NCBI GenBank assembly: GCA_026692845.1
Contig: JAPLNM010000100.1
Location: 1-64,000, forward strand
Length of the DNA stretch: 64,000 bases
Reading direction: 5' to 3'
Origin: Planctomycetota bacterium
GTDB taxonomy: Bacteria > Planctomycetota > Planctomycetia > Pirellulales > Pirellulaceae
Positions within the stretch are counted from its first letter, which is position 1. Every line of letters begins with the position of its first letter. A model generated the notes under the pieces. That model was not told the DNA's origin. It made no database searches and saw only the letters and a program-made list of their open reading frames with translations. Shown piece after piece: positions 8,953-61,335 of the stretch. The position numbers and the translations under genes were made by a program.

Positions 8953-10224
8953 CTACTTCTTGGTCACCTCAGGGGATTTTCTAGGACCCGGAAAGACTGG
9001 CCCCGGAAAGACTGGCGTGTAAGGGGCCGTGCGAGCGGTTCTCCAAGCCTGCGGTTGCTTGGCTTGCCCGTTGGGTTCCTCGGTCCCGACATAACTCGGT
9101 GCAAAAGGGATCGGGCTGTTGGTCTTCAAGATCGCAATCTGCTTGCGAATGTTCGAGAGATCTTCTTGGATGGCATCCAAGTCCTCGCGGCTTGCAGTCA
9201 GGCTCTGGCAGCGTCTCTGTTCGGTCGATTCGTAGGGGGTTCTAGACCAGTCGTTTTGAGGGGGCGTCGAGGCCCGGACGGCCAAGGCTTCGGCCGACTC
9301 CTGACGCGCTTCGATCATCGCAAGTTGGGTTTGCAACTGCTGATTGTGTTGAAGCAAAAGTTCGTAGCGTTGGGCGTACATCGCCCGTTCGGCGGCCAAC
9401 TGCTGGCTCATTTCCAAGCGAACCGAGTTTTGCGCATGAGCCACGATGTAGGCCACCAGCGTGCTCGCCGGCAGCGTGACTTGCACGTCGCTTAGGGTTC
9501 CGAAGATATTTTGATCTTGGTTTTCCAGGCTGGGGTATCCTTGCAGTGGATACTCTTGCATGACGTAATCTGGTTGGTATGGATCTGGTTGGTATGGATT
9601 AGGTTGAAGTTGATTAGGTTGAAGTTGATTAGGTCCGAACGGATTGGCATCCTGCATGGCAAAAGGGAAGCTCGGTGGTATCGGCGGTGCGACGGGAGCT
9701 TCGCTGATCTGTTCTTGGCCCGGATTCTCACCGGCAGTTCCATCGTGATGTGGATCGGTGATGTCGGTTCGGAGTGCGGTGCCGGTTGGATTTGCATCGC
9801 AAGTTCCGTTGGCGCAACTCTTGTTCTGCGATGCCGGGAGGACTGCTTCGAGTTCGATCTCGGGTACCACGCCATGGATTGCAAGTTTGGCTGTGACCCG
9901 CCGCGGATTTTTCATCCAATCTGAAACCCATTGAGCCAAGGTGACATTGGAGGCCTCGGGTGTTTTCGCTTTGGGGCCAGTTGCCAGGGCTTTGGTCGGT
10001 TGTTCGACGGAGTTTTCCTCGCATGGGCAAGGTTCCTGCGCTGCGGCACCTTTGCGGGTCGAAGCGTCGCTCGGAACCGGTTGGTCCAGCGCGAAGGCTT
10101 GAGCCGAAGTGCTTGCCGATCCGATTGCTAGGGCCAAAGCGATGGCCGTAGCGACAAAACTTCGGCGAGCCGATAGCTGACGAGCCGAAAGCTCAGTTGT
10201 CGAGACGTGAAATAGCGCATCCAT
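8953..10224 (-). CDS. Secreted or periplasmic coiled-coil protein with pentapeptide repeats
   Basis: I do not recognise the family. From the ATG at 10224 (GGGAG eight bases upstream) the protein has 423 residues; an ATG at 10239 would add five. An N-terminal signal peptide (hydrophobic VATAIALALAIGS, cleavage after AQA) indicates export. A Cys-containing stretch (EEPCPCEEN) and a Pro/Gln-rich linker follow, the latter with four five-residue repeats (QPNQL, QPNQL, QPNPY, QPDPY). A probable coiled coil spans about 285-330 (Gln/Glu/Leu-rich), with a second helical part at EDLDAIQEDLSNIRKQIAI. The tail contains the tandem PVFPG PVFPG. A structural envelope role is possible, but this is inference. 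Confidence 0.6.
   Translation of the reverse strand: MDALFHVSTTELSARQLSARRSFVATAIALALAIGSASTSAQAFALDQPVPSDASTRKGAAAQEPCPCEENSVEQPTKALATGPKAKTPEASNVTLAQWVSDWMKNPRRVTAKLAIHGVVPEIELEAVLPASQNKSCANGTCDANPTGTALRTDITDPHHDGTAGENPGQEQISEAPVAPPIPPSFPFAMQDANPFGPNQLQPNQLQPNPYQPDPYQPDYVMQEYPLQGYPSLENQDQNIFGTLSDVQVTLPASTLVAYIVAHAQNSVRLEMSQQLAAERAMYAQRYELLLQHNQQLQTQLAMIEARQESAEALAVRASTPPQNDWSRTPYESTEQRRCQSLTASREDLDAIQEDLSNIRKQIAILKTNSPIPFAPSYVGTEEPNGQAKQPQAWRTARTAPYTPVFPGPVFPGPRKSPEVTKK
9570..9629. repeat. Four 15-bp tandem units inside a coding region
   Basis: Two identical copies of ctggttggtatggat are followed directly by two identical copies of taggttgaagttgat. All four have a 15-bp period and are in frame with the minus-strand gene, where they encode QPNQL/QPNPY/QPDPY-type pentapeptides. 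The two pairs are related to each other, suggesting duplication followed by drift. Confidence 0.9.
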
Positions 10225-10283
10225 GCGAAAGACTCCCATCCTGCCGTTGAACCACGAAGCGTCACACCGAGCGACCCTTTAAT

Positions 10284-10351
10284 ACACCATGCCCTCTAAG
10301 ACACCGTGCCCTCTAAGACACCGTGCCCTCTAAGACATCGTGCCTTCTAAG
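10284..10351. repeat. Four 17-bp tandem repeats in a divergent intergenic region
   Basis: The unit acaccgtgccctctaag occurs four times head to tail with one or two mismatches in the outer copies, and a fifth partial copy (acaccg) follows. It lies in the 352-bp gap between the divergent secreted coiled-coil gene and the AsmA-like gene, close to the start of the former, where it could separate or modulate the two promoters. Nothing else is evident in this gap. Confidence 0.9.
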
Positions 10352-10576
10352 ACACCGCTGAGGAGGACTCTAGCAAATTCTCCAGTTGTAAACAAAGATC
10401 GATCTAGGACCTATGGGGCATTGATCTGGCTCTTTCCTACCCGAAACGGTTATCCTCCGAGCCGAGCCTATAGATCTACATAGATCTACCGCCCGAAATC
10501 TGCGAACCCGTGGGAAAGGGTTGGTAGGAAGGGCCAAAAATGCTAGCAAAAGTCAAGACCAAGGATTGGTATAGCG

Positions 10577-13500
10577 ATGCGAAGAGTTCGATCCAAACAG
10601 CAGCAGGATGACAGCTTGGCGAAAATTCACTCAAACGGAGCATCGAGCCGATCGGTTCGCAGAGGCTCGAAATGGAAATGGCGACTTGCGATCGGTGGGA
10701 TCGTGGCTCTGGGCTTAGTCGCTGCGGCACCGACGGTGGCGTTAAGGCAACGCGCATGGTTGCTCGAGCAGATCAATCAGCGATCGGGACTTGCGCCGAT
10801 CCAGGTGGATATTGGGCAACTCAAGGGGGGCTGGGTCGAATCGTTCGGAGTTCAGGGGTTTCGGTTGGTCGACGATCGGGGATCGGAGCTTGTGAAGATC
10901 GGATCGATCGACACGGAGCTGACGCTATTTTCTTTGATGGCCAATTACCGTCGGCTCGGAACGATCACGTTGCACCAGGTGGATGTCGCGGTGGATGTGC
11001 ATCCGGGTACGACTAGTCTTGAGGAGGCGATTAAACCTTTGTTGCAAGGGACGGTCACGAAAGAGCCAACCGCTAGCGCATCGACATCGGCAGGATTTAC
11101 TGGAAGGATTCGAATTGCTGGAGCGGTGGTAGAGGTTCGCGACACGGTCGACCAGACGGCTTGGGCCTTGCGTGTGAGTGAGGCGGACATTCCGATCCCG
11201 ACGGCCCAGCAGCCGATCCCACCGATGACGCTCGTAGGTGATTTGGTGCAGACATCGCTAGCTCCTGGGCAAACGATGGCGACCGGTCAGTTCACGTTAA
11301 GGACCGAGCCGATCGCTCCTGGGATGACGAGTTTGGCGGGTGCGAATATGCCCTCGTTGCGCATGACGGTATCGACGCAAGGGTTGCCTTTGCAATGGAT
11401 GAGTTTGGTCAAGCGTCGCTTGCCTGATTTCCCGATCGACCAGCTCGATGGTCAAGCGACGGTCCAGGCCGACGTGGAGTACACAGGACCGCAGGCCTTG
11501 ACGGCGTTTGTCAAGACAGCGCAATTGGATCGACTTCGGATCGTCGCGCCGAGTTTGGTAGGCCAGCGAGGAGCGGGGATTGAGCAGATCCGACTCAGCG
11601 GCGATATCAGTTTGTTTCAAAACCGGATCAGCACCAACAGTTCGAAGCTCGAATGCGACTTTGGGACGGTCGTATCGAAGGCCAACATGGCGATTCCGTC
11701 GAAGCTACCGGTTTGGAATCGTCCGTGGCTTGAGGACTCGGAATTTGAGGTCCAAGGGACGTTTGATTTGCCCAGGCTCGTGGCTGTCGCACCGGATCTC
11801 CTCAAGACGCAGGATCAGGTTCGTTTGCTCTCGGGCAATGCGACGCTGAGTCTGTCTCAAACTCGCGGTGCTTTGGGCCCTGAGGCGGGCGGTATTCCTT
11901 CGAGCAGCTATCAAGTCAAGCTTGGGAATCTCCTAGCGGACATGCAGGGAAAGCGGATCGAGTGGGACGAAGCTTTATCGGCCGGCTTGGAGGTGTCGGG
12001 CAATGCACAAGGGATTCCGAGTTTGCGATTGTTTTGCAATTCGGAGTTTTGCCAAGTCGAGGGAGCTGGGGATTTGCTCGACGGGAGGCTGACGGCACAA
12101 CTCGATTTGGACAAGATGGAGCAGAGGTTATCGCAGTGGTTTGTCTTGCCGTTCGAGAGCCTGACCGGCTCGGCGCAAGCCGCTGTTGCTTGGAAACTCA
12201 ACGAGGGGAATCGATTGTCGACCAACGGTTCGCTCAGGACGACCGAAATGCGTATCGCGCATCCCAACGGACGGCTCGACGAGCCAGCTTGGGACGGCGA
12301 ATTCAGCACGGTCGCACAGCTCGATGGCATGACGATCCTGCAGTTGGATCGAATCCAAGCGAATTTGAAATCCGAGCAGGAGTCGCTGCAGTTCCAGGTC
12401 CTTGAACCGATGGCCATCTCGAGCGCACCTTCGGGGCTAGGACCGAATTCTGCCCCGATGTCGCTCAAGCTCACTGGGGACTTGGCCCGATGGCAACGAA
12501 GAGGTCAAATGTTCGCAGGAATCGATCCAGGGATTTCCGTCGCTGGCAAAATCGCTTTGGATGTCCAAGGCGCCATCGATGCGAAGCATGTCGAGATTGC
12601 GATGGTCGATTGGGTTTCCGAACCGTTTCAGTTAACCAGCGGCGCGACCACCCTGCAAGAATCGCGCATGGTGGGAAAGTTTCAGGGGAAATTCGACAGC
12701 AGCCAATTGGCGAATCTTCAGGTCGATAATCTTCTGGTCAGGGCCGATTCGTTTGCCATCCAAGCGCAGGACCAAGCCGACGCGAGCAACGCAAGCCGCA
12801 AGGGCCAAGCGGCATTTCGGGTCGACCCGAGCCGATTGATCGCGTCGTTGCAAACCGAATCGGCTGGAGGCGTTGGACCGACCGGACCGACCGGAGCGGC
12901 CTCGACGCCGATTCGCATCACTGGAGACCTAACCGGTCAAATGGACTGGACGCTCGATCCGAATGACATCCGATGGCATCTGGTCACGCAAGCCAAAGAC
13001 CTGCGCGTTTTGCAGTCGACGCTCCAGCCCCGCAATCCGAATCAACTCGTCAGTACCGCAGCGCCCCCCGGTTCCGAGAGCGTTCTTTGGGAGGAACCTC
13101 AAGCGATCATGACCGTCGACGGTTCGTATCGATTCGCCGATGGCCAACTGCAATTGCCGCAAATCCTTCTGCAGACCGAATGGCTCGCCTATGGGGGTGC
13201 TACGCAGATGACCCAACAAGCCGGGTCGACGGTCGTCCAGACCCAGGGTAGCGTGACTTACGATGCGGCCCGAGCCGCCGAGCGGCTTCGACCCTATACC
13301 GGAGGGATGCTCACTGCGAGCGGCCAGAAAACACAACCCTTGGAAGTCACCTGGGTGAGCGCGCCGAATCGCAAATGGACCGAGTCGCTCACGGCCCGTT
13401 CGAGCATCGGCTGGGACAGCGCCAATGTGGTCGGGATCGATATCGGTAACGCGGACATCCCGTTGGTCATCGAGAACGGTCGCTTTGCATCCAAAGCCGA

Positions 13501-14425: not shown

Positions 14426-14513
14426 TTTTGTACCGGCACCGTGATTTTTGATTGGATCGAGATCTCCGAGACACATTAGGAGTCGATCGAAAGGACCCGA
14501 TCTAGAAGAACTA

Positions 14514-18901: not shown

Positions 18902-18904
18902 TTT

Positions 18905-20314: not shown

Positions 20315-21235
20315 ATGCGAAATCTCGACTTTAGTTCTTGGAACGGAGCTCTGACGACTCTGTTAGGGTTGGTCATCGTGTCTGCGGTTGCTGTGGGAAT
20401 TCGCCTGCTGCTTATGCAGACCATTCAGCGGCGACGCGAGCGGGAGAATCGTCAGATCAATGAGCGTCTTCGAACGCTCATCGCCGCTTACAAGATCCTG
20501 GGCGGGTCCTTCACGGGTGAGCTTAGCGTCGATCCGGCCCACCTTCGAGCGCTGCGAAAAATGACCGAAAATGGGTCCTTAGGAATGCAACCCATCGAAG
20601 GGACGACCGAAATCGGATCGACCCTGGAGGCCGCCTCGTCCGAACGAAGCCGGCGTATCCGAGATGCCGTCGAAGCCGCACTCTCGGATGTGATCTTGTT
20701 GGGCACCGAGGAGCAAGTAAACCTTGCTGCACATGCTGCACGTGAGATGGTCGCGGGCAAAAAAGTTCATTTGTCGGAGCTTATTGTGTCACTGCGGAAC
20801 TTCATTCGCAATGCTCTGGACCTAGACCCAATCTCTGCCGAACTGCACATCCCAGACCAGGGACCGCTCAGACCGACGGTTTCTAGCGGAAAGGCAAGTG
20901 GCGGTGGTCGCGGTGAAGGAGCCGATAAAGAAAACGGCGGTCGTTTGGACTCCGAGATGTCTATGGGGGCCGGAGGTCTCGGAGGAATGGCAGCGGGTCC
21001 TCATCAGGCTGCCTCTGAGATAAATCCAGAAGAGCATCCCACCGACGGCTGGACACTTCGGTGCATGGTTTTGTTCTGGCTCTTCGTCGTGCTCGTGCTC
21101 AGTCCGCCGCGGCGGACGGTGCTCGTGCTCGTGCTCGTAATCGATTCGATTACGAGCACGAGCACCGTTTCACTGAGCACGAGCACGATTTGCTCGCTCC
21201 TTGCCAGAACAAGTTGTAGGACTGATTGCGTTTAA
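20315..21235 (+). CDS. Conserved membrane-anchored protein with a repeat-derived C-terminus
   Basis: The first ~195 residues belong to a conserved but functionally unnamed family common in Proteobacteria, recognised by MRNLDFSSWNGALTTLLGL, ILLMQTIQRRRERENRQI-like juxtamembrane sequence, LAAYKILGGSFTGELSVDP-type block and AALSDVILLGTEEQV. One membrane helix (about 13-34) anchors a cytosolic helical domain. A Gly-rich linker follows. From about residue 243 the frame enters a dispersed palindromic repeat (copy at 21042-21389), giving a junk-like tail rich in Leu/Val and Ser/Thr (VLVLVLVIDSITSTSTVSLS) with Cys at the end. The native C-terminus has probably been replaced. The N-terminal family being mostly proteobacterial suggests horizontal gain. 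Whether the product is stable is unknown. Confidence 0.7.
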   Translation: MRNLDFSSWNGALTTLLGLVIVSAVAVGIRLLLMQTIQRRRERENRQINERLRTLIAAYKILGGSFTGELSVDPAHLRALRKMTENGSLGMQPIEGTTEIGSTLEAASSERSRRIRDAVEAALSDVILLGTEEQVNLAAHAAREMVAGKKVHLSELIVSLRNFIRNALDLDPISAELHIPDQGPLRPTVSSGKASGGGRGEGADKENGGRLDSEMSMGAGGLGGMAAGPHQAASEINPEEHPTDGWTLRCMVLFWLFVVLVLSPPRRTVLVLVLVIDSITSTSTVSLSTSTICSLLARTSCRTDCV

Positions 21236-37447: not shown

Positions 37448-37846
37448 TTAGAAAATTCCGAGTTGGTCTCTAGCATCTTCAGTCATTTTATCGGGGGTCC
37501 AAGGTGGATCCATGACCACCTTGATGTCGACGAGTCCAACGCCTGGGAGTTCCTCGATGACTTGACGGCTGTTGGCCACGAGCTGCGGTCCGGCCGGACA
37601 CATCGGACTCGTCAGAGTCATTTCGACATTGATGTTCTGTTTGCCTTCTTCCCCGTCTTGGATATCGACCAGGTAGATCAGTCCAAGGTCGACGATGTTC
37701 ACGAAGAGTTCAGGGTCGATGACTCTCTTTAGTTCTTCTCGAACCTTGTCCTCGCACAGCGCGACAGGTTGGGTATCAGCAGGTTGGATATCAGCGGGTT
37801 GAGCGCTGGTGGGATGAAGGTCGACTGGTTGGTTATTCTCAGACAT
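37448..37846 (-). CDS. sufT: SufT / MIP18-family (DUF59) Fe-S assembly protein
   Basis: The 132-residue protein is the DUF59 fold: VREELKRVIDPELFVNIVD, LGLIYLVDI, TLTSPMCPAGPQL with the conserved reactive Cys, and DIKVVMDPPWTPDKMTEDA. SufT helps in maturation of Fe-S proteins, especially under high demand. The first ~30 residues are a Pro/Gln-rich extension made of QPADI/QPADT pentapeptide repeats (15-bp DNA period, 37767 onward), absent in typical homologues. It lies between the Rieske gene (44 bp) and sufES (2 bp) in one operon. Confidence 0.9.
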   Translation of the reverse strand: MSENNQPVDLHPTSAQPADIQPADTQPVALCEDKVREELKRVIDPELFVNIVDLGLIYLVDIQDGEEGKQNINVEMTLTSPMCPAGPQLVANSRQVIEELPGVGLVDIKVVMDPPWTPDKMTEDARDQLGIF

Positions 37847-46893: not shown

Positions 46894-48213
46894 CTATTGG
46901 CCGACCGGTTTCTCATTGGGGACCGACCAATGGCCTTCACTACGGTAAGACCTGCCGAGCATTTGATGCGATTGCGGGTCGTTGGTGATCGTTTGGGTCC
47001 TCGAATCGACTTTCAATTGATTGCCCGTTCGGACCGAGATATTGGCCAAGTGGATCAAGGCGGTCGAATCATGACCGATTTGAATATCGGCCGAAGGCTT
47101 TGTACCCCGCGCAATCGCATCCAAGAAGTCGGCTTGGTGGCTCGATGCTAACGCGACGATCTCTTTGGGAGCCGGTGAGTCGACAAGCTTATTGTTCTCT
47201 GACCATACCATCAGCTTACCGCGTTTGCTGACCATGAGCATTCCTTTGGTGCCGTAGAATTCGACTCCATTGTCGCAGTTGTAAGGATAGTTTGTCGACC
47301 AAATGCGCATCTCGAAAATCAATTGACGACGGTGGCCTACTTGGCCATCGCCTGGCCATTCGAACGTGCAAGTCGCATGGTCGGGAAACTGTTGATCATC
47401 GTCAAAATAGTATTTGCCACCGATGGCACTTGCCGTGCTCGGAAGACCCTCGACACCCAGTCCCCATCGAGCGATATCGATCTCGTGAGCGCCATCGTTT
47501 CCAATATCGCCAGTACCAAAGTTATGCCACCAGTGCCAAGCGTAGTGGAATCGGTTGCTTTGGTAGGGCATGAATTCAGCAGGTCCGATCCAAGCATCGT
47601 AGTCGATGTGGTCGGGCGCTGCTGACGGTGAGGACTTGCCGATGTTGCTGCGCCGTTGGATGTTCCAAGCTTTGGCCATCAGGACCTCGCCAATGGCTCC
47701 CTCTTTGATCATTTGGATCGCGTTGACGATCTGCCGATTGCTGCGGCTTTGCGTTCCATGCTGGACGACGACCTGGTTCTTGCGGGCGGCTTCGACCAGC
47801 ATCGCACCTTCAAGGTAGTTATGGCTACAAGGTTTTTCGACGTAGACATGCTTGCCCGCGTTGCAAGCCAGAATCGAGGCAGGAGCGTGCCAGTGATCTG
47901 GGGTCGATATCACGACGGCTTGGACCTCCTTATCCTCAAGAACCCTGCGCAGGTCGGTTGTCGCTTTGGCTCCGGTCGCTTTTTCGAAGTCGGCGAGCCT
48001 TTTTTTGTCAGGGTCGCAGACCCATGCGATTTCGGCGATCTTTTGGAATTCGTCGCGATGGGTGTTGGCCCGTCCGCCGCAGCCTATCAATGCAACTTTT
48101 ATCCTGGCTCGCGGTGGGTTGGCTCGCAGTCGGTTGGCTTGCAGTGGGTTTGGTGCAAGCACCAGCGCCGTCGAGGCTCCAGCGATAAAAAATCTTCGGG
48201 GGATTCTGAACAT
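46894..48213 (-). CDS. Exported Gfo/Idh/MocA-family oxidoreductase
   Basis: The 439-residue protein has a twin-arginine-like signal (RIPRRFFIAGASTALVLAP), a Rossmann NAD(P)-binding half with VALIGCGGRANTHRDEF and the catalytic-region VYVEKPCSHNY (Glu-Lys-Pro, about residue 124), and a beta-sheet half (about 175-400) containing WHWWHNFGTGDIGNDGAHEIDIARW. Such proteins use a tightly bound nucleotide to oxidise or reduce sugars; planctomycetes export many through Tat. Residues 22-38 (NPLQANRLRANPPRA) derive from three 15-bp tandem units at 48106-48150 and give a linker after the signal. It is convergent with the heme protein, so is not in an operon with it. Confidence 0.9.
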   Translation of the reverse strand: MFRIPRRFFIAGASTALVLAPNPLQANRLRANPPRARIKVALIGCGGRANTHRDEFQKIAEIAWVCDPDKKRLADFEKATGAKATTDLRRVLEDKEVQAVVISTPDHWHAPASILACNAGKHVYVEKPCSHNYLEGAMLVEAARKNQVVVQHGTQSRSNRQIVNAIQMIKEGAIGEVLMAKAWNIQRRSNIGKSSPSAAPDHIDYDAWIGPAEFMPYQSNRFHYAWHWWHNFGTGDIGNDGAHEIDIARWGLGVEGLPSTASAIGGKYYFDDDQQFPDHATCTFEWPGDGQVGHRRQLIFEMRIWSTNYPYNCDNGVEFYGTKGMLMVSKRGKLMVWSENNKLVDSPAPKEIVALASSHQADFLDAIARGTKPSADIQIGHDSTALIHLANISVRTGNQLKVDSRTQTITNDPQSHQMLGRSYRSEGHWSVPNEKPVGQ

Positions 48214-48357: not shown

Positions 48358-48385
48358 TCGACCCTGGGAAATCGACCCTGGGAAA
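48358..48385. repeat. 14-bp tandem duplication in an intergenic gap
   Basis: tcgaccctgggaaa occurs twice in succession, with tcgacc as a third partial unit, in the 216-bp gap between the oxidoreductase start and the small membrane gene. The period is not a multiple of three, in contrast to repeats inside genes. Confidence 0.85.
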
Positions 48386-48429
48386 TCGACCGTAAGGCCT
48401 ATCGACCATAGAGCATTCAGAGAGCCTCG

Positions 48430-49542: not shown

Positions 49543-50148
49543 GATCCGACGGATCAGATGGATCAGACGGATCGTAAACCCGGTGCCAGGCACATGCTGA
49601 ATCGAGCCAGGATTTGCTAGCAACCCAGCGGCGTTAACCCGGTGCCAGGCACATGCTGAATCGAGCCCTGGCGTTAACCCGGTGCCAGGCACATGCTGAA
49701 TCGAGCCCTGAATCGCCAGGCACATGCTGAGCCGAGCCAGGATTTGCTAGCAACTCAGCGGCGTAACCAGGTGCCAGGAGCGGCGTTAACCCGGTGCCAG
49801 GCACATGCTGAATCGAGCCAGGATTTGCTAGCAACCCAGCGGCGTAACCAGGTGCCAGGCACGTGTTGAGCCGAGCCAGGATTTGCTAGCAACCCAGCGG
49901 CGTTAACCCGGTGCCAGGCACATGCTGAATCGAGCCAGGATTTGCTAGCAACCCAGCGGCGCTAACCCGGTGCCAGGCACATGCTGAATCGAGCCAGGAT
50001 TTGCTAGCAACCCAGCGGCGTAACCAGGTGCCAGGCACATGCTGAATCGAGCCAGGATTTGCTAGCAACCCAGCGGCGTAACCAGGTGCCAGGCACATGC
50101 TGAACCGAGCTAGATCAGACGGATCGGACGGATCAGACGGATCAGCGG
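49543..50148. repeat. Minisatellite array of 59-bp units bordered by GATCNGACG repeats
   Basis: The 59-bp unit runs aacccggtgccaggcacatg, ctgaatcgagccaggatttg, ctagcaacccagcggcgtt. It recurs from 49577 to about 50105 as roughly ten to eleven copies, some shortened to about 40 bp or missing internal blocks. Each unit carries the dyad GTGCCAGGCAC. Three 9-bp units of the GATCNGATG/GATCNGACG type precede it (49543-49569) and four follow it (50113-50148). The array fills the 720-bp gap between the ECF sigma gene and the next minus-strand gene, whose stop lies in the right-hand 9-bp repeats. Because there are no unique spacers it is not a CRISPR. Confidence 0.95.
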
Positions 50149-50930
50149 TGCGGCTTCTGTCCGAAATTTTCCGCCCGCTGGCGCTGCTGGTGCCTGTCCC
50201 TGATCTCACCTGCCCGAGACTCCGAACCGCCGGTGACCCTCACACTGCTGGTACCACTAGCAAGTCGAATCGCCGATACCTCAGACTCGACGTGCTGCTT
50301 GCCCAGTTTCGAAACAGGCCCGGATCGCAATTCGGATCGCAATAACGCCGAGCTCTCGGGGCTCGAGAACCGGACAGGTTCGTTGAGCTCCTGAGCCAAT
50401 TGCTCGTCTTTATCGATCGCTTTATCCATCGGAGTCTCTGAGTTGTCCTCGGGATGCAGTGCGCCGGTGGATAATGCGCCGGTGGATAATGCGCTGCAGT
50501 CGCCGTTTACCTCCGTTACCGCAGTTGCATCGATCGGACTGCTCGGTCCGAGCGCAAGCTCCTGCAGCCCATAGCTCGGTCGCACACCGCTTGGCATCTG
50601 GAATCGCGTTGGTTCCATCCAAGCGTCGCATTGCAGCCGTGCGGATCCAGCCGATATCGGTTTGCTTGCATAACGATGGCTTGTCGATTTCGCCTCGAGT
50701 TTCGCCTCGAGCCGATCCCCGGCTTGACTCAGCGGCATCATGATCAGCGACTGCAACGAGGGTAGGTAAAAGCCCTGGCTTGGCCTCGAGGGGTCCGATG
50801 CTCCATCGCATTGCCCTTGGGCTTCGCCGGCCACAGAGGCCAAGCCGCCTAGGGTGCCGCATAGGATTCCAGCCAAATGCATTCGAGCTAAACGCATACC
50901 GGTTAAACGCAATAAACGCATTAAACGCAT
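50142..50930 (-). CDS. Secreted protein of unknown function
   Basis: The ATG at 50930 gives 262 residues. The N-terminus is a run of near-identical nine-base units (atgcgttta) that encodes Met-Arg-Leu repeats, followed by a hydrophobic signal segment (GILCGTLGGLASVAGEAQG). The mature part is Ser/Pro-rich without recognisable domains. ALSTGALSTGAL comes from a 15-bp duplication at 50461-50490, and AKLEAKS-type duplications are also present. Its stop lies inside the 9-bp repeats at the end of the minisatellite. It is divergent from the TolC gene. Codon pattern and signal peptide favour a real gene, but no family is known. Confidence 0.5.
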   Translation of the reverse strand: MRLMRLLRLTGMRLARMHLAGILCGTLGGLASVAGEAQGQCDGASDPSRPSQGFYLPSLQSLIMMPLSQAGDRLEAKLEAKSTSHRYASKPISAGSARLQCDAWMEPTRFQMPSGVRPSYGLQELALGPSSPIDATAVTEVNGDCSALSTGALSTGALHPEDNSETPMDKAIDKDEQLAQELNEPVRFSSPESSALLRSELRSGPVSKLGKQHVESEVSAIRLASGTSSVRVTGGSESRAGEIRDRHQQRQRAENFGQKPHR

Positions 50931-53856: not shown

Positions 53857-54344
53857 CAGAGTCTTGTTGAAATTTCAATCGGAAGCGATCCGGAACCCAC
53901 GGCTAAATGCCACTTGCCAAGCCGCAGGCAGTGTCGAACCCAGGTTTGCAACGAGGCAAGATTGTAAACAACGCCGGTGGCCATCCAAGGTGTTACCGAT
54001 AGGAATTCACGCCAATTCGGTTGGTTCCAGCACCAAAGGATCCTGACCGAACCTGGAAATCGATCCGGTCGGGGCCCGATCTGGCTCGACCACAACCCGG
54101 CGTCGATCCACTCGATTCGTCCATCGATGTCCTGTTGGGCGATTTTATCGGTGATTTTATCGGTGACTCGGCTCGCTCGCCAAAGGATGCGATACCCGGG
54201 CTCCCTGGATTGGTGCAACTCGGCCAAAACGGTCCGATAGACCAGCGCCCGATGCATGGGCGCAAGTCCGATGCAATGCCAGTGCTGTTCCCAACGGTTC
54301 GGACCGGCAATCGCCCGAGCGACGGTACTCGAGAGTCGGCTCAT
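53856..54344 (-). CDS. Unknown protein translated between manA and the epimerase
   Basis: The 162-residue product is not recognised. Its ATG overlaps the manA stop (ATGA, 54341-54344) and its stop overlaps the epimerase start (TGATG), which argues strongly that it is translated. It is rich in Trp and Arg (IEWIDAGLWSSQIG, CWNQPNWREF, TWVRHCLRLGKWHL) and has no signal peptide or membrane helix. DKIT DKIA near residue 62 results from a 12-bp duplication at 54141-54164. A cytosolic accessory role in nucleotide-sugar or polysaccharide synthesis is suggested by the operon only. Confidence 0.65.
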   Translation of the reverse strand: MSRLSSTVARAIAGPNRWEQHWHCIGLAPMHRALVYRTVLAELHQSREPGYRILWRASRVTDKITDKIAQQDIDGRIEWIDAGLWSSQIGPRPDRFPGSVRILWCWNQPNWREFLSVTPWMATGVVYNLASLQTWVRHCLRLGKWHLAVGSGSLPIEISTRL

Positions 54345-55405
54345 CCTGCCGATCCAAAAACCGGCTCGGCGGCAAGCACGGTGGTTTCCGGCCCGACTGC
54401 GAGACTGGCTTGACTGCAGGATTGCGGAATCAACGCCGACTCGCCGGTGCGCAGCTCGATGCTGCCTGAGCTTGTCTCGATCCTCGCAGTGCCCTTGGGT
54501 ACCGTCACGATACGGCAGGTCGGCAAATCCAATGCATAACTCGCTGGTTTGTCAAAACGCACCAAACGGAACTTGTCGCAAACGACCAGTTCCTGGGGCC
54601 CAAGCCCTGGCCCGCCAAGCTCTGGTACGCCAAGCTCTGGTACGCCAAGCTCTGGTATTGGGCGCGCCGATACTTGCCCGATGGGCCCTCGCTCAAAGTC
54701 GATCACCTCGAGAGCTTGGTCGATATGCAACGCTCGAGAATTGCCGGCAGCATCGACGCGATTCCAATCGTACAACCGAAAAGTGCAGTCGCTGGCCTGT
54801 TGGATTTCCGCGACGAGTAACCCGGCTCCTAGAGCATGGACCGTACCGGCCGGAATGAAAATGCAATCGCCCGCCTGCGGGCAAATCGCGTTCAAGCAAT
54901 CCTCGGTCTTGCCAGCCTGGATCGCTTCTACCAAATCCTTTCGCGAAACGTTGGCTTTGAGCCCTGCGTACAATAGCGAACCGGGTTCCGCGTCGATGAT
55001 GTACCAAGCTTCTGTTTTGCCCAAATCCGGGGAGGCCATTTGCAGGCCATAGGCGTCGTCGGGATGGACTTGAACACTCAAGACGTTTTGGCAATCCAGG
55101 TATTTGAGCAAAAGAGGAAAGCGGGTGACTTGGGACATCCCCTGAGCGCCTTGCGGGGACGCCAAGTTTTCCTGGCCCAGAATCGCTTCCCGATGCTCGC
55201 TGAGCAATCTGCCCAGCGTCCAGCCTTGCCAAGGCCCATTTTGGACGACCGATTGTCCTTGGGGATGGTCAACAATTTCCCAGCTCTCGGACCAAATGCC
55301 GTCTCCAGGCAGGTTTTTTCCGAGTTTCGAGGCTAGTCTGCGTCCTCCCCACAGGTACGACCGGTAAAGTGGTTCGAAGACTAGCGGAGGAAATGCCGGA
55401 AACAT
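54341..55405 (-). CDS. manA: Class I mannose-6-phosphate isomerase
   Basis: A 354-residue cupin-type zinc enzyme that interconverts mannose-6-phosphate and fructose-6-phosphate. Zn ligands are visible in LSVQVHPDDAYGL (Gln and His, about residue 114), KTEAWYIID (Glu), and the PAGTVHALG block (His, about 190). LYRSYLWGGRRLASKLGK is the typical N-terminal motif. Residues 256-270 contain VPELG repeated three times (15-bp DNA units at 54614-54658), an insertion in a surface loop. First gene of a three-gene operon with overlapping stops and starts, leading to an unknown protein and a sugar epimerase, so it probably feeds polysaccharide synthesis. Confidence 0.92.
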   Translation of the reverse strand: MFPAFPPLVFEPLYRSYLWGGRRLASKLGKNLPGDGIWSESWEIVDHPQGQSVVQNGPWQGWTLGRLLSEHREAILGQENLASPQGAQGMSQVTRFPLLLKYLDCQNVLSVQVHPDDAYGLQMASPDLGKTEAWYIIDAEPGSLLYAGLKANVSRKDLVEAIQAGKTEDCLNAICPQAGDCIFIPAGTVHALGAGLLVAEIQQASDCTFRLYDWNRVDAAGNSRALHIDQALEVIDFERGPIGQVSARPIPELGVPELGVPELGGPGLGPQELVVCDKFRLVRFDKPASYALDLPTCRIVTVPKGTARIETSSGSIELRTGESALIPQSCSQASLAVGPETTVLAAEPVFGSAG

Positions 55406-55513
55406 GGATTGCCAAATTGAGGGATTGCATCGAAGCTGATTAAAATTCTAGGTATGGATTCTAGGCATAGATTATAGTCGCGATTTTTCCGTAAGAGAGG
55501 GGATCCGCACCCG

Positions 55514-56626
55514 ATGAAAGGTGACGATCTTTTTGAAAAGAGTTCGATGACGTTCGGAGAGCACCTCGATGAGCTTCGCATCGCGCTGGTGAAATCCTCG
55601 ATTTGGCTCGGTCTGGGCATGATCCTCGGACTGATGCTTGCGACTCAGGTGGTAACCTACATGCAAGGCCCACTGGAAAAGTCCCTAGAGAATTTCTACA
55701 AAAAGAAATCACTCCGGGAGATAGCGCAAACCACGGGAAATCCAGTCCCTGCAGATCTGGAGGCTTGGATGAAAGACAACAAGGTCGTCAGCCAATACGT
55801 TTGGATCGACCCTCGCAGGCTCTCGCTCGAGAGCCTACCCGTCCCGACAGACGCCGTCCCGACAGCAGATCCGCCGACTGCAGATGCGCCGACTGCAGAA
55901 GCGCCGACTGCAGAAGCGCCGATTGGGACCGCGCCGAGCCAGAGCGGTTCGGCATCGCAATACATGGCCGATGCGGATTCCGAGGGCTTACCCGACCCGT
56001 CGAAAATGGTCAAGGTTCGGATGTTCGTCGGGGTCAAGGCCAGCACCGAAGCGTTGGGTTTGCAGGAGCCGTTTATGATTTGGCTCAAGGCTGCCTTTGT
56101 GGTTGCCGCCGTGGTAGCGAGCCCCGGAATTTTTTATCATCTATGGCAATTCATTTCATCGGGGCTTTATCCGCACGAACGCCGCTATGTCTACTTCTTC
56201 TTGCCCACGAGCTTGATCCTGTTTTGGTCCGGAGCTTGTCTTGCGTTCTTTGTGATCTTCCAGCTCGTGATTGACTTCCTGTTGGACTTCAATGCCAATA
56301 TGGGGATTGGGGCCTCCCCACGGCTGACCGACTACATGTCGTTTGCGTTGCTTTTGCCTTTAGGATTTGGAGTCGCTTTTCAATTACCCCTGGCGATGCT
56401 CGTCCTGGAACGCTTAGGGATTTTCTCCTACGAGACCTACCTGAGCCAATGGCGGATCGCGGTGCTTGCAATCGCTTTTATCTCCATGATTTTGACCCCT
56501 GCAGATATGGTCAGTATGATCGGGATGGGAGTCCCTTTGGTAGCCCTGTACTTCTTGGGGATTGCCATGTGCAAGTACCTACCGAGAGCCGCGATGCAAA
56601 ACCCAACGGTCGGTGAACCGACCTAA
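55514..56626 (+). CDS. tatC: Sec-independent protein translocase TatC with an enlarged first periplasmic loop
   Basis: At 370 residues it is about 120 longer than usual TatC. The N-terminus MTFGEHLDELRIALVKSS matches the conserved signal-binding region with Glu16. Helix 1 (about 29-49) is followed by a loop of about 130 residues (50-185) containing Pro/Ala-rich PTADAPTAEAPTAEA units (15-bp DNA repeats, 55874-55918). Then helices 2-6 follow, with the conserved FYHLWQFISSGLYPHERRY, PLGFGVAFQLPLAMLVLERL and SMILTPADMVSMIGMG. It forms the membrane receptor for twin-arginine substrates, several of which are encoded in this window. It may be co-transcribed with the four-helix membrane protein 12 bp downstream. 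Confidence 0.93.
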   Translation: MKGDDLFEKSSMTFGEHLDELRIALVKSSIWLGLGMILGLMLATQVVTYMQGPLEKSLENFYKKKSLREIAQTTGNPVPADLEAWMKDNKVVSQYVWIDPRRLSLESLPVPTDAVPTADPPTADAPTAEAPTAEAPIGTAPSQSGSASQYMADADSEGLPDPSKMVKVRMFVGVKASTEALGLQEPFMIWLKAAFVVAAVVASPGIFYHLWQFISSGLYPHERRYVYFFLPTSLILFWSGACLAFFVIFQLVIDFLLDFNANMGIGASPRLTDYMSFALLLPLGFGVAFQLPLAMLVLERLGIFSYETYLSQWRIAVLAIAFISMILTPADMVSMIGMGVPLVALYFLGIAMCKYLPRAAMQNPTVGEPT

Positions 56627-56638
56627 AGCGAATCGGCC

Positions 56639-57229
56639 ATGACCTCGAACGATCCGTACAAAAGTTTCCGAGAGTTCCCCCTCTCGGTGCGTATTGCGCA
56701 ACGGTCCTGGATCACCGCATTAGCGATTCCCCTGTTCTCGATCCGAGTGATCGCCAGGATGAAAGTTCCCTGGGTCGTGCAATCCATCTTCGGGGTCTCA
56801 GGACTCCTTGCCCTCGTCGGCTACGTCACGACTTGCTGGGTCCTAGTCCGCTATCCCTACATCGGCATGGTGGATTCCTCCGACGGTGACTTGTACACCA
56901 AATACGTCGACAAACTCGGAGCGATGATCAAAAAACTTCTAGGCCTCTGCGCAGTGGTATGCTTGTGCTTTGCCCTGGTGGCTCCAATGCGCGACGGAAA
57001 AATCAATGGCATGGAAATTCTTTGGCTCCTCTACGGGGGATCGACGCTGGTATTCTTGCTCTTCATCCTGCTGCGATTCAACCGCTTCGACCACCCGGCC
57101 GTCGCGACGCTCCTAAGGTGCACGCTGGGATTTGGCATCCCGCTTTTTCCGCTTTTTGTGCCCGCCTTGATCGTCGGCTCGCTAAGGGCCAGACGGCTCC
57201 TAGACGAAGCCCAAGAGCAGATCCGCTAG
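56639..57229 (+). CDS. Four-helix inner-membrane protein of unknown function
   Basis: The 196-residue protein lies 12 bp after tatC. It has about four hydrophobic helices (VVQSIFGVSGLLALVGYVT; LLGLCAVVCLCFALVAPM; ILWLLYGGSTLVFLLFILL; TLGFGIPLFPLFVPALIVG) and basic ends that suggest cytosolic termini. No family is recognised. The close spacing with tatC points to joint expression and possibly a role in the Tat machinery or membrane insertion, but this is inference. It converges on the porin gene 10 bp away. Confidence 0.7.
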   Translation: MTSNDPYKSFREFPLSVRIAQRSWITALAIPLFSIRVIARMKVPWVVQSIFGVSGLLALVGYVTTCWVLVRYPYIGMVDSSDGDLYTKYVDKLGAMIKKLLGLCAVVCLCFALVAPMRDGKINGMEILWLLYGGSTLVFLLFILLRFNRFDHPAVATLLRCTLGFGIPLFPLFVPALIVGSLRARRLLDEAQEQIR

Positions 57230-57239
57230 CCGTCGGGAC

Positions 57240-58712
57240 TTACCAGTTGAAGTCAAATCGCATCGCCAAGAGGTCCGATTCGGTCGCTCCATAAAGCGTT
57301 TGCTCGGTGGTGATCGGATGGATCCAATCGAACATCCAACGTGTCCGATCGCTCCAGTACCAGTTGAATCCGACGGTCAAGTCATCGTACTGGCCAGCTT
57401 GCAATGGATTCATATCCAAGTGCGACCATCGGGCTTTGAGTTCCAAAGCCCCTGGCTGAAACTCACCCCGCTTGAAACGGAAATTCTCCAGCGGTGCGTT
57501 GCGCCCAAACTGAGGTCCATGCTGTCCAAAACGATCAAAGTTACGACTCTCGCCTGTGAGAAACCAACTCGTGTGCACATAAGCCCCGCTCAGAGTCGGG
57601 TTTCCTCCATCGAGCATCTGCACGGTCCCAAGGAAAGCCTCGGATTGCACCGCAAAGCGACCCATCACGATCGCGCCTTCGAGATTGCCCGATGTCATGC
57701 TGTCGGCCCTGAGCACTCCTGAATCGATCAACCGAGGCCCCTCGGAAACCTGCGGCCTTGTTCGAATCCGAATCCGATCATCGCTGTCGTCGGTAAACAA
57801 AACCCCTAGCCCCGTATGCACCAATCGCCGGCCTTTGGGCTGGTCGTTATCGTAAGGCAACCAAGTGAGTCTGCCACTGACTCGGTACCCCTGGTTGTCA
57901 TCCAAACGCTTCTTGAACCCCTCACTGATGCTATCGATGAAGCAACCGGTGGTCCATGTCAATCTCTCATCCTGAGAACAATTGTAAAATGCGAACCCAA
58001 CCTCGCGGTCGGCTGCAAAGACCGTCTGCGTCGGTATCGAACGCTCCAAAAATATGTTGTTCGTATCGTTGGTGACCTGCTCAAGACTATACGGAACAAA
58101 GAAATTACCCACGCGAAAGCGACCCAGATAGGGGATCTGGTTCATCGTGAAATAAGCATCCTTGACCTGTGGCGTCAGGTTGGCTTCAGGAAGGGCGTCC
58201 CCAAAGGGTTCCGGTTCAAGTGTCAGCTGCAGGCGAAAATCGCAAACATCGTAGCCCGTCCCGTCGGCTACCAATCGTAAGCGTCGGAAGTTGAAGTAGT
58301 TGCTCGTATTGGGTATCGAATCGCTCGCGTTGGCCCACAGCACGTAGTCCATCTGCACGTGCCCGCCAAGCTTGACATTCCACTTCTCAGGTTCCGACTT
58401 GGTACTAGCCTCCTTGGATGTCTCTGCTTTGGGGACGGGTTGCTTGGGAACATCAGCCTTCAAAGCTACCTCAGGGGTCTCTAGAACCAAACCTTGGTTG
58501 GACTTCGGAAGCGATGTATCCTGTGCCCAGAGCCCAACAGGCAGGATTCCAGAACTCAAGACCACCAACAAACAAGCCAACCAACGGCCGCCCAATCGCA
58601 CCTTGAGCCCTTCGGATTCCTCTATTAGGTTTACTAGCATTGGTAGGTTTACTAGCATTGGTAGGTTTACTAGCATTGGTAGGTTTACTAGCATTGGTAG
58701 GTTTACTAGCAT
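57240..58712 (-). CDS. OprO/OprP-like outer-membrane porin
   Basis: The longest frame gives 490 residues, but the first 28 come from five tandem 18-bp units (MLVNLP repeats), each with its own ATG (58712, 58694, 58676, 58658, 58640). The innermost ATG yields the most usual signal peptide: a basic segment then ACLLVVLSSGILPVGLWAQ. The mature part, after a Pro/Lys/Glu-rich linker, is a phosphate-selective-porin-type beta-barrel: KLGGHVQMDYVLWAN, YFNFRRLRLVADGT, YLGRFRVGNFFVPYSLEQVT and the last strand ending LLAMRFDFNW with a C-terminal aromatic residue. Such porins are trimeric and often anion-selective; the substrate is unknown. It is convergent with the preceding membrane gene. Confidence 0.85.
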   Translation of the reverse strand: MLVNLPMLVNLPMLVNLPMLVNLPMLVNLIEESEGLKVRLGGRWLACLLVVLSSGILPVGLWAQDTSLPKSNQGLVLETPEVALKADVPKQPVPKAETSKEASTKSEPEKWNVKLGGHVQMDYVLWANASDSIPNTSNYFNFRRLRLVADGTGYDVCDFRLQLTLEPEPFGDALPEANLTPQVKDAYFTMNQIPYLGRFRVGNFFVPYSLEQVTNDTNNIFLERSIPTQTVFAADREVGFAFYNCSQDERLTWTTGCFIDSISEGFKKRLDDNQGYRVSGRLTWLPYDNDQPKGRRLVHTGLGVLFTDDSDDRIRIRTRPQVSEGPRLIDSGVLRADSMTSGNLEGAIVMGRFAVQSEAFLGTVQMLDGGNPTLSGAYVHTSWFLTGESRNFDRFGQHGPQFGRNAPLENFRFKRGEFQPGALELKARWSHLDMNPLQAGQYDDLTVGFNWYWSDRTRWMFDWIHPITTEQTLYGATESDLLAMRFDFNW

Positions 58713-58716
58713 TGGA
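58627..58716. repeat. Five 18-bp tandem units at a gene start
   Basis: aggtttactagcattggt repeats five times without mismatch except in the last base of the final unit. Each unit encodes Met-Leu-Val-Asn-Leu-Pro on the minus strand and contributes one in-frame ATG, giving the porin gene five candidate starts. Confidence 0.95.
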
Positions 58717-58885
58717 ACCGATTGGCTAAGCGTTGCGATTCAGGCGAATTCGGATTTTTCTCCCCGGTCGATACCTCCTCGGTATCTCTTCGTTACCTCT
58801 TCGGCAATCGGCAAGGCCTACTCAAGCGTTAAACTCGGACTCGGCCTAAAAACCCGAGGATTCGGAGTTGTTGCAATCACTGCAA

Positions 58886-60163: not shown

Positions 60164-60395
60164 GATCTGCCACTTTCTTTTCGATCGCGCGGACCAAATC
60201 CGCGGCTTCCTGAAGCGTAATTAAAATCCGCTGCAACTTCCCCTCGGTTTCGGCAAAATGGTCGGTCATGAACTTCTCGGCGGTGGAATCCTTCCACTGC
60301 TCAGAGACGCTTGCGCGCGATTCACGCCAATGGTTCAACGCGTTTTGGACGCGTCCTTTGGCGCCGACCAAGTCGTTGCGGGATCTTGTACCCAT
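60147..60395 (-). CDS. Small helical protein, WXG100-like
   Basis: An 82-residue, all-helical protein: two helices separated by WKDSTAEKF (residues 35-43), which resembles the W-X-G turn of WXG100/ESAT-6 proteins (here W-K-D), and ending in a long charged helix (ILITLQEAADLVRAIEKKV). Size, turn motif and hairpin profile fit that superfamily, but Gly is replaced by Asp and no type VII secretion gene is seen here. Its 3' end overlaps the nuclease gene by 17 bp and its start lies 7 bp after the sugar isomerase stop, so all three are probably one operon. Confidence 0.65.
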   Translation of the reverse strand: MGTRSRNDLVGAKGRVQNALNHWRESRASVSEQWKDSTAEKFMTDHFAETEGKLQRILITLQEAADLVRAIEKKVADHDYGD

Positions 60396-60402
60396 GGAGG
60401 AT

Positions 60403-61335
60403 TTAAGGCTTGAGCTTTTGGGTCAGTTCGGACAGTCCATCGAGGTTCTCTTGGAGTCGAACCCTCGCATCGAGGTCGGTGTGATTGAGGATTCCTACGG
60501 GTCCATCGAAGTTCATTTGTCCGATGAGTTTCAGGACCTGCTTGTCTTGGCTCCCTTGTCCGATCGGCAAAATCTTCTTGCCGAGCCGCTCGCCGTCGGT
60601 TTCCATGCCGTTGAGGTTGATCGCCAGCAGATAGGGTTGGATTTTCGCAAGGATCGATTCGAGCCGATCGAGTTGATGGTGGGCGTGATGGAGGTTGTAG
60701 ACCATTCCGACGTTGGGAAGTCCGATCGCTTGGATGAGCCGAATTTGGTTCTCGGGTTCGCCATACCAACCGCCGTGGTTGTACAAAGCCACCTTGCAAC
60801 CGGCCTCCTGGGCGGCCAGAGCGATTTCCCGAATTCGGCGCGACTCGGACTCGATGAAGGCTTGGGTCTGCTGGGCATCCATCGAGATATCACCGCCACC
60901 GGTGACCCATAGCTGCGGGTGGATTTCATGTTTTTTTACAAGGCTCAAGATCGCTTTGGCTTCATCGTTTAGCGCCGTGGGAAACCACCACGCGGTAAAC
61001 TCGATACCGTGCTTTTTCATCGTTACAATCTCTTCCTCGAAACTCGCCACATGCTCGGCCCGGTAATCGTAAGCAAGCCGCTTGATCCCCAGCTCGTCGA
61101 GCATCGTAGCCCGTTGCTCAGGCGTTCTTTTCTTCGAATCGAAAGGGACGATGCACCAAGCCACCAGATTCGGCTTGTCGAACTTCGTCCCGCGAAAAAC
61201 TCCTGCCGCTGCCGGTTCTTGGGCCATCGCGTAAGTGCCCAAAAAAGCTGACGACAGGCAAGCTGGCGACAGGCAAGCTGGGGCGAGCAAGCAAAGGACG
61301 GTCAAAACACGAATCCGGGAAGGAAGACTCATCAT
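60403..61335 (-). CDS. Exported sugar phosphate isomerase/epimerase-like TIM barrel
   Basis: The 310-residue product has a signal peptide that contains a 15-bp duplication (PACLS PACLS, 61254-61283) and ends ...GTYAMAQ. The rest is an AP endonuclease 2/xylose isomerase-like barrel: LDELGIKRLAYDYRAEH, HGIEFTAWWFPTAL, YNHGGWYGEPENQI and GMVYNLHHAHHQLDRL contribute the metal-binding Glu, His and Asp positions. Exported members are common in planctomycetes, probably acting on polysaccharide-derived sugars; the substrate is unknown. The stop is 7 bp before the WXG-like gene, so it likely heads a three-gene operon. Confidence 0.82.
   Translation of the reverse strand: MMSLPSRIRVLTVLCLLAPACLSPACLSSAFLGTYAMAQEPAAAGVFRGTKFDKPNLVAWCIVPFDSKKRTPEQRATMLDELGIKRLAYDYRAEHVASFEEEIVTMKKHGIEFTAWWFPTALNDEAKAILSLVKKHEIHPQLWVTGGGDISMDAQQTQAFIESESRRIREIALAAQEAGCKVALYNHGGWYGEPENQIRLIQAIGLPNVGMVYNLHHAHHQLDRLESILAKIQPYLLAINLNGMETDGERLGKKILPIGQGSQDKQVLKLIGQMNFDGPVGILNHTDLDARVRLQENLDGLSELTQKLKP

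Follow-up and report, generated by a model that had tools for sequence, protein, structure and literature searches.

The genes of a Pirellula-type planctomycete raise the question of why tandem duplications inside them should so often be 15 bp long, when the frequency of short duplications is normally expected to fall as they get longer. A sequence-only reading of the window (the whole 64-kb stretch of DNA that was analysed) had listed 13 such arrays as coding, pointed to a preference for exactly 15 bp, and suggested that this preference may reflect a property of the replication or repair machinery.

Tandem arrays in the window

All 13 listed arrays were present with the periods claimed, and their ends were off by a few bases, within one unit at most, the largest shift being a start at 55859 instead of 55874. 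The assignment to coding DNA is doubtful for 50460-50494, which lies in overlapping ORFs of which the one scanned was without a Pfam match, and 54141-54166 was classed as intergenic by the codon-usage caller described below. The earlier list of non-coding periods proved incomplete, as arrays of 10, 16, 40, and 58 bp occur too. No Rfam match was found in the window at the gathering threshold, and a distant plasmid search with one window gene gave no match. The arrays and several intergenic duplications are as follows.

8987-9016, minus strand: 15-bp unit, two perfect copies, C-terminal region in a 428-aa protein
9568-9634, minus strand: two different 15-bp units side by side, both doubled (9568-9599 and 9597-9634), gene of the 428-aa protein
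12875-12895, plus strand: 9-bp unit, 2.3 copies, perfect, gene of a 1282-aa protein; outside the 12-18 bp class
37765-37801, minus strand: 15-bp unit, 2.5 copies, 90% matches, ahead of a FeS_assembly_P match
43422-43472, plus strand: 15-bp unit, 3.4 copies, 86% matches, ahead of the first Pfam match of a 1400-aa protein
46242-46285, plus strand: 18-bp unit, 2.4 perfect copies, flanked by Pfam matches within the 1400-aa protein
48105-48150, minus strand: 15-bp unit, 3.1 copies, 87% matches, residues ~21-36, directly before a GFO_IDH_MocA match (38-153)
50460-50494, no strand assigned: 15-bp unit, 2.3 perfect copies, coding status doubtful
54141-54166, minus strand: 12-bp unit, 2.2 perfect copies, 162-aa ORF without a Pfam match
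54600-54657, minus strand: 15-bp unit, 3.9 copies, three of them perfect, outside a PMI_typeI_cat match
55859-55922, plus strand: 15-bp unit, 4.3 copies, 93% matches, within the span of a TatC match, where the protein is far longer than the profile
58626-58715, minus strand: 18-bp unit, five perfect copies, including the start codon of a Porin_O_P gene
61252-61281, minus strand: 15-bp unit, two perfect copies, N-terminal in an AP_endonuc_2 protein
144-179, no strand assigned: intergenic 17-bp duplication, 2.1 perfect copies
192-223, no strand assigned: intergenic 16-bp duplication, both copies perfect, without microhomology at the junction
10275-10357, no strand assigned: intergenic 17-bp array, 4.9 copies, 90% matches
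48358-48391, no strand assigned: intergenic 14-bp duplication, 2.4 perfect copies

Samples and counting rules

Arrays were counted in 1.13 Mb (the own sample) out of the 5.24-Mb Pirellula-type MAG and in a comparison set of four congeneric groups (A-D), the single-contig congener G006, G029, G030, and E. coli, with genes called by a simple, purpose-built codon-usage caller. Coding period counts took in direct repeats 11 nt or longer, and the mean of three shuffles served as control; the pooled intergenic count used a run of at least 9 nt in the own sample, A-D, and G006, with L152 omitted from group C. Arrays that cross a gene boundary were assigned to neither class (at 12-18 bp, 14 in the own sample, 2 in C, and 3 in G006). 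An array was flagged as dispersed when its flanks held at least three 16-mers each present in at least three copies. Dispersed arrays are listed separately in the period counts and set apart in the microhomology set, the fit to periods of at least 12, and the clean-event tests; they were removed, group A excepted, from the pooled intergenic count and the hump fit, and retained in the densities per Mb, the count of genes with arrays, and the frame-filter count. Because the flag in group A also took orthologous copies (9 of 15 coding 15-bp arrays), A holds fewer independent events than counted.

Period spectra within and between genes

Coding arrays of the own sample numbered 20 at 12 bp, 48 at 15 bp, 19 at 18 bp, and 6 at 21 bp, and the intergenic arrays at 12, 15, and 18 bp numbered 12, 11, and 8. 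Since shuffles, by codon in the genes, gave 0-1.3 arrays per period over 12-18 bp in the whole own sample (mean of three), these arrays are not due to chance. A 12-, 15-, or 18-bp array was present in 86 of the 631 called genes. The same peak appeared in the coding DNA of A-D (20 arrays at 15 bp versus 3 at 12 and 5 at 18) and was not seen in G006 (3 versus 2 at 12 and 3 at 18). The coding spectrum, for which the earlier reading had proposed a check for flatness, is not flat: the share of 15 among coding 12-, 15-, and 18-bp arrays differs from one third (binomial p = 2e-5 for the own sample, 1e-8 once A-D are added).

The excess at 15 bp in genes is thus real, but it is not a preference for exactly 15: in intergenic DNA, periods of 13, 14, 16, and 17 bp are all common. 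Pooled intergenic counts for periods 10 to 20 were 7, 2, 28, 16, 24, 32, 19, 19, 15, 3, and 6, against 0-6 each in one shuffle, and form a class spanning 12-18 bp. A spectrum falling with unit size, as for VNTRs, was not found: the counts drop steeply on both sides, from 28 at 12 to 2 at 11 and to 3 at 19, with 32 at 15.

Within genes this class is subject to a reading-frame filter, with multiples of three making up 104 of 109 coding arrays of period 10-24 in the own sample versus 43 of 90 intergenic ones. A hump fitted to the intergenic non-multiples of three (mean 15.06, sd 2.26, bootstrap mean 14.45-15.80) predicts coding shares of 0.22/0.55/0.23 at 12/15/18 bp, with net observed shares of 0.25/0.58/0.17; the limits on the predicted share of 15 are wide (0.42-0.84), and the agreement needs periods below 12 included and multiples of three excluded, a choice made post hoc. 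Counts at 12, 15, and 18 bp did not differ significantly between coding and intergenic DNA (p = 0.13 own, 0.17 own plus A-D). What reads as a preference for "exactly 15" is in large part the midpoint of a mutational class viewed through the reading-frame filter. Two comparisons speak against an account by the filter only. A normal fit to all intergenic periods of at least 12 predicts 46.8/46.2/26.8/9.1 coding arrays at 12/15/18/21 bp versus 25/71/27/6 seen (p < 0.001), and clean events fall at 15 bp more often in coding than in intergenic DNA (29/44 versus 7/21 in the own sample, nominal p = 0.018; 38/57 versus 10/24 with A-D, p = 0.049; 40/61 versus 13/29 with G006 added, p = 0.071). There may therefore be extra sharpness at 15 within genes, beyond the frame filter.

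Change between close relatives and lineage distribution

The arrays are young and active. The array at 58626-58715 has five copies here versus one in G017 and G019. Orthologues in G010, G017, and G019 carry at the 8987-9016 site a different 15-bp tract, which varies in length by one 15-bp unit, and other 15-bp-periodic sequence at the 43422-43472 site; orthologues have other 15-bp-periodic sequence at the 9568-9634 site too; among these three genomes tracts differ by 15 bp, one by 30 bp. Pairwise alignments of close relatives (at least 400 columns; gaps counted where 18 or more of 25 positions matched on each side) held seven coding gaps of 15 bp, one of 12 bp, two of 18 bp, and none of 21 bp, the pairs overlapping and one 15-bp gap being counted three times. 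Four of the seven coding 15-bp gaps, and none of four coding 30-bp gaps, passed a test for duplication of neighbouring sequence. Gaps of 1 bp and 3 bp were commoner in these alignments (21 and 17).

The arrays are concentrated in the genus. Coding 15-bp arrays per Mb numbered 59 in the own sample, 118 in A, 21 in B, about 99 in C, and 23 in D, against 7 in G006, 0 in two other families, and 5 in E. coli. For coding 12-, 15-, and 18-bp arrays together the densities were 103 (own), 142 (A), 53 (B), 110 (C), and 35 (D), against 18 in G006, 6 each in G029 and G030, and 5 in E. coli; intergenic 12-18 bp arrays reached 338, 111, 59, 250, and 191 per Mb in the same five samples, with 103 in G006, 0 in G029, 91 in G030, and 0 in E. 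coli. This concentration favours a mutational property of the lineage, which partly supports the earlier suggestion; we found no evidence linking it to any named replication or repair enzyme.

Origin of the duplications

We consider it probable that head-to-tail duplications of about 12-18 bp arise by a mutational process specific to this lineage and that frame selection leaves the 12-, 15-, and 18-bp ones in genes. One process would lie behind all these duplications, acting in genes and intergenic DNA alike with a centre near 15 bp and an sd of about 2. Frame-shifting duplications in genes would be purged by selection, so that 12, 15, and 18 remain with 15 leading, and the surviving coding arrays would lie mostly in linkers, N-termini, and tails, where they could then gain or lose whole units via ordinary slippage. 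As to the molecular step, it is possible, though doubtful, that at a nick or fork a strand end slips back or re-joins locally over a distance of about 15 nt, in some cases assisted by 4-9 nt of microhomology.

Junctions of 70 clean events gave a mixed picture that may reflect more than one mechanism pooled. Microhomology was nil in 27 (null 38.5) and at least 4 nt in 24 (null about 1.8). Hairpins at the duplication site found no support: in the 69 events compared, one being lost to a too short flank, the one-copy sequence had a longest perfect stem no longer than that of random sites (coding 4.0 versus 4.32, n = 34; intergenic 4.37 versus 4.38, n = 35). No boundary position survived correction, the best being C at -4 (p = 0.005, 14 positions). 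AGC ended the unit in 5 of 28 zero-microhomology events versus 0.87 expected, as the best of 64 triplets. CCCAG/CTGGG occurred in units 11 times versus 2.3 (p = 4e-5, uncorrected over ~512 five-mers and several subsets), a hint only, and because of this excess a primase-site (CTG) model was considered.

Selection at the protein level for five-residue units in flexible linkers, with ordinary slippage as the DNA step, is an unlikely alternative to this lineage-specific process. It would fit the strong coding peak at 15, the sharper clean events in genes, the lower content of order-promoting residues in repeat regions (0.240 versus 0.313), and the position of most repeats outside Pfam matches. 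It does not account for the 12-18 bp class of intergenic DNA, which includes lengths impossible in coding sequence, and the units are without an evident common peptide; at E 0.001, a pentapeptide-repeat family matched none of the 10 window proteins scanned, which were all of the 11 with listed arrays but the 1282-aa one. Nor is the density of 15-bp arrays consistently raised in genes: coding and intergenic values per Mb were similar in the own sample (59/54) and C (98/98), higher in coding DNA in A (118/72), and lower in B, D, and G006. Quite unlikely, too, is an origin of the end-joining type, in which ends with a stagger of about 15 nt, from a break or a pair of nicks, are filled in and rejoined so that the overhang is duplicated. 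A fixed stagger would yield a narrow size class, and the 27 junctions without microhomology speak for it. Against it, 24 have at least 4 nt, no boundary motif was left after correction, and Ku gave no match in any of the 25 genomes of the genus (it was present in 6 of 15 others of the order). Ku/LigD end-joining fill-in had no support, on the same lack of a Ku match.

The remaining explanations are far less credible. Target-site duplications from a cleanly departing mobile element, which we regard as very improbable, would look alike in forming a narrow size class with little homology. Inspection by eye of unique intergenic repeat pairs 30-3000 bp apart in about one fifth of the genome recognised no element set with 12-18 bp flanking direct repeats among the 60 nearest of 98 pairs, and arrays of more than two copies (58626-58715, 54613-54657) are not expected from a single excision. 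A similarly slim chance attaches to lost flap removal (the PolA 5' nuclease) or lost mismatch repair; unremoved flaps reportedly lead to duplications in yeast rad27 mutants. The PolA 5'-nuclease domain was present in 40 of 40 genomes, however, and in PolA here 16 of 17 checked positions, among them all seven acidic ones of the 5' nuclease, were identical to E. coli (R20 is Q). A flap-nuclease-deficient mutator was accordingly set aside as improbable from the sequence. MutS (MutS_I) was found in this genome, G010, G017, and G019 and not in G003, G004, G012, G013, G026, and G036; its presence here speaks against a mismatch-repair-deficient mutator. An assembly artefact of short-read MAGs is hardly conceivable: most genomes used are fragmented MAGs, but the in-frame state of 104 of 109 coding arrays requires selection acting on real DNA, the single-contig G006 has the intergenic class too, at a lower rate, and 15-bp coding arrays occur in MAGs from different projects.

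Comparison with known systems

The arrays share with replication slippage at VNTRs the copy-number change in unit steps, seen between G010, G017, and G019 and in the five copies versus one at 58626. Junction microhomology points both ways, with at least 4 nt in about a third of clean events and none in 27 of 70. To our knowledge, slippage between short direct repeats alone predicts no size window. In prokaryotic satellites and minisatellites, in-gene tandem repeats have units that are multiples of three, as here, and many encode amino-acid repeats (PMC6749651); in two Burkholderia species, 12-, 14-, and 16-nt satellites derive from microsatellites of 6-8 nt (PMC6749651). The available text of that survey mentions no comparable 12-18 bp class, and in this lineage non-periodic sequence has often been duplicated just to two copies, and the class fills intergenic DNA as well. 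Short insertions in primates and flies are described as mostly tandem duplications, with lengths in two geometric (declining) regimes (PMC2374710), whereas here there is a hump at 12-18 bp. Among the matches listed in a literature search, no title dealt with a 15-bp or 12-18 bp bacterial duplication class, subscription journals being mostly outside coverage.

That lengths peak around 15 bp inside genes and outside them points to a mutational step whose length is built in, and this lineage is a natural system for finding it. Such a process would explain much of the array content of the 86 genes, and a protein-level cause would not be needed for all of them. It is conceivable, although we rate it as rather unlikely, that the Pirellula group carries an enzyme-set, homology-free ruler of about 15 nt that writes 12-18 bp tandem duplications genome-wide and would amount to a built-in generator of five-codon linker variation. 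Such a ruler could be, for example, a nucleoprotein whose nicking, displacement, or re-priming occurs at a set distance.

Coding tandem duplications peak at 15 bp

The window is part of C100, one of 182 contigs that make up a genome of 5.24 Mb. In the public genome collection, its nearest relatives go under the names of Pirellula sp., Planctomycetaceae, or Planctomycetota MAGs. Our sample of this genome (the own sample) was first 1.07 Mb, including the window, and later 1.13 Mb; genes were called with our codon-usage script, and approximately 80% of the sample was coding. Congeneric relatives were divided into groups A (G010, G017, and G019), B (G001, G004, G013, and kin), C (G005, G018, and kin), and D (other members of the genus). 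Arrays were counted as perfect copies, which detects short periods fully, or under a uniform criterion that asks for direct repeats of 11 nt or more, makes a single entry per cluster, and keeps dispersed repeats separate; this criterion under-detects periods below 11 bp.

Perfect duplications in own genes numbered 42, 1, 0, 19, 1, and 1 at 9 through 14 bp, 54 at 15 bp, 0 at 16 and 17 bp, and 16, 1, and 2 at 18, 21, and 24 bp; when neighbours were merged, 18, 36, and 12 remained at 12, 15, and 18 bp. The uniform criterion gave 20, 48, 19, and 6 arrays at 12, 15, 18, and 21 bp, where codon-shuffled own genes yielded 0.7, 1.0, 1.3, and 0 (means of three shuffles). Genes of groups A-D combined carried 3, 20, and 5 arrays at 12, 15, and 18 bp, and an equal split over these periods was rejected for both sets (binomial p = 2e-5, own; 4e-5, A-D). 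These non-flat counts bear out, at genome scale in the own sample and in A-D, the 15-bp coding excess proposed by the sequence-only reading. Genes of G006, a single-contig congener, showed no 15-bp peak (2, 3, and 3).

A frame filter acting on a 12-18 bp class

In own intergenic DNA (222 kb), the uniform criterion found 12, 10, 12, 11, 9, 4, 8, 1, and 1 arrays at 12 through 20 bp, and 3, 1, and 1 at 9, 10, and 11 bp, periods below 11 bp being under-detected. Merged perfect copies numbered 28, 17, 9, 3, 2, 13, 5, 10, 8, 8, 7, 4, and 1 at 7 through 19 bp, and the trough at 10-11 bp sets a 12-18 bp class apart from the duplications of 7-9 bp. Pooled intergenic DNA (own, A-D, and G006; run of at least 9 nt) gave 28, 16, 24, 32, 19, 19, 15, 3, 6, and 11 at 12 through 21 bp, compared with 0-6 in one shuffle. 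The surplus at 12, 15, and 21 bp over neighbouring periods suggests that part of these arrays lie within uncalled genes, and we therefore fitted only periods not divisible by 3. The window array at 54141-54166 may lie within an uncalled gene.

The fit, a normal hump over a flat background, had a mean of 15.06 and an sd of 2.26 (own intergenic alone, 14.72 and 2.03). It predicts coding shares of 0.22/0.55/0.23 at 12/15/18 bp, with wide bootstrap limits (0.42-0.84 for 15 bp); the net shares seen were 0.25/0.58/0.17. Coding and intergenic 12/15/18 counts did not differ significantly (p = 0.13, own; 0.17, own and A-D). Selection that removes frameshifting duplications from genes, acting on the 12-18 bp class, accounts for much of the coding peak. 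It may not account for all of it: a normal fit to all intergenic periods of at least 12 bp did not reproduce the coding ratio, and clean events were sharper at 15 bp in genes: 29 of 44 coding versus 7 of 21 intergenic in the own sample (p = 0.018; 0.049 with A-D added and 0.071 with G006 added). An extra preference for 15 bp in genes may thus act beyond this frame filter. The earlier emphasis on exactly 15 bp in genes is right as to the peak, but that peak is largely a product of the filter.

Among own arrays with periods of 10-24 bp, 104 of 109 in genes were multiples of 3 versus 43 of 90 in intergenic DNA. This bias in genes points to real DNA on which selection acts and speaks against assembly noise as the source of the arrays.

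Distribution of the arrays across the genus

Duplications of this kind are found mainly in this genus, at rates that vary among its members; a weak intergenic background may exist outside, as G030 shows. The earlier interpretation holds in part: a duplication process with a preferred length probably operates in this lineage, but the preferred length covers 12-18 bp, with 15 at its centre.

Array densities per Mb (95% Poisson limits): coding 15-bp; intergenic 12-18 bp
Own: 59 (45-77); 338 (266-423)
A: 118 (66-195), orthologous copies counted repeatedly; 111 (23-325)
B: 21 (3-77); 59 (1-328)
C: 99 (45-188); 250 (81-583)
D: 23 (6-60); 191 (88-364)
G006: 7 (1-20); 103 (59-167)
G029 (another family of the order): 0 (0-23); 0 (0-100)
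G030 (another family of the order): 0 (0-22); 91 (19-266)
E. coli K-12: 5 (0-28), one array in 198 kb; 0 (0-72)

Duplication junctions and candidate machinery

Junctions were analyzed in 70 clean events (perfect two-copy duplications of 12-18 bp with non-periodic flanks) from own, A-D, and G006 (34 coding and 36 intergenic; four gene-edge events were left out). Microhomology was 0 nt in 13 coding and 14 intergenic events (homology-blind expectation, 18.4 and 20.1) and at least 4 nt in 15 and 9 (expectation, approximately 0.9 each). With 27 of 70 at 0 and 24 of 70 at 4 or more, numerous events can do with hardly any homology or none, and a sizeable part use it. Duplication sites showed no association with hairpins and no firm boundary motif. 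In the units of these events, CCCAG/CTGGG occurred in 11, where 2.3 were expected (uncorrected p = 4e-5); CAG/CTG was the top 3-mer in coding and intergenic units (pooled p = 0.01, neither significant alone).

Classical end joining is a poor candidate for the process, since Ku was found in none of the 25 congeneric genomes (it occurs in 6 of 15 others from the order). Loss of flap removal is likewise a poor candidate, as all 40 genomes encode the PolA 5'-nuclease domain and the own genome keeps the acidic residues of E. coli PolA. Loss of mismatch repair is also a poor candidate, MutS being present in the own genome.

Arrays in the window and their turnover

All 13 arrays listed by the sequence-only reading are present with the periods it gave, and two loci hold more than it described:
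9568-9634: two distinct 15-bp units, each doubled
58626-58715: perfect 18-bp unit in five copies, including the start codon of a Porin_O_P gene

The latter array opens the gene with several in-frame ATG codons; G017 and G019 have a single copy. Eleven of the 13 arrays were alignable to at least one relative, and none of these 11 was found as the same array in a relative. At 8987, 9568, and 43422, relatives carry other 15-bp-periodic tracts in the same place. The protein at 8953-10239, without a Pfam match, has orthologues with different 15-bp arrays in the same places, a turnover hot spot.

Among G010, G017, and G019 (pairwise identity 92-95% over aligned parts), 15-bp-periodic tracts differ by whole 15-bp units. 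Pairwise alignments gave coding gaps of 1 bp (21), 2 bp (3), 3 bp (17), 6 bp (2), 9 bp (5), 11 bp (2), 12 bp (1), 14 bp (3), 15 bp (7), 18 bp (2), 21 bp (0), and 30 bp (4) and intergenic gaps of 14 bp (2), 15 bp (3), 18 bp (1), and 24 bp (3); the pairs overlap, so these counts are not independent events. Of the coding gaps, four of the seven at 15 bp passed a test for duplication of adjacent sequence, whereas all four at 30 bp did not.

Order-promoting residues made up 0.240 of repeat flanks versus 0.313 at random gene positions (n = 93, p = 9e-9). Of these 93, 38 lie within the N-terminal 20% of the protein. Pfam matches were found in 7 of 10 scanned window proteins, with arrays outside the matched stretches except in TatC. 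The arrays lie where in-frame insertion is tolerated; positive selection is not required. The TatC protein (55514-56626) has a 326-residue match to a 208-position profile, indicating a large insertion, and a 15-bp array within its span.

The own sample also holds numerous short dispersed intergenic repeats. Two further sets of repeats were seen in the window:
21119-21188 and 61609-61645: blocks of the 6-bp repeat GAGCAC/GTGCTC; the 14-mer GAGCACGAGCACGA occurs 41 times in the own sample, both strands counted
49715-50145 and 61446-61856: repeats between genes, the GGTGCCAGGCAC type among them, found in many places in the relatives searched, among the matches listed
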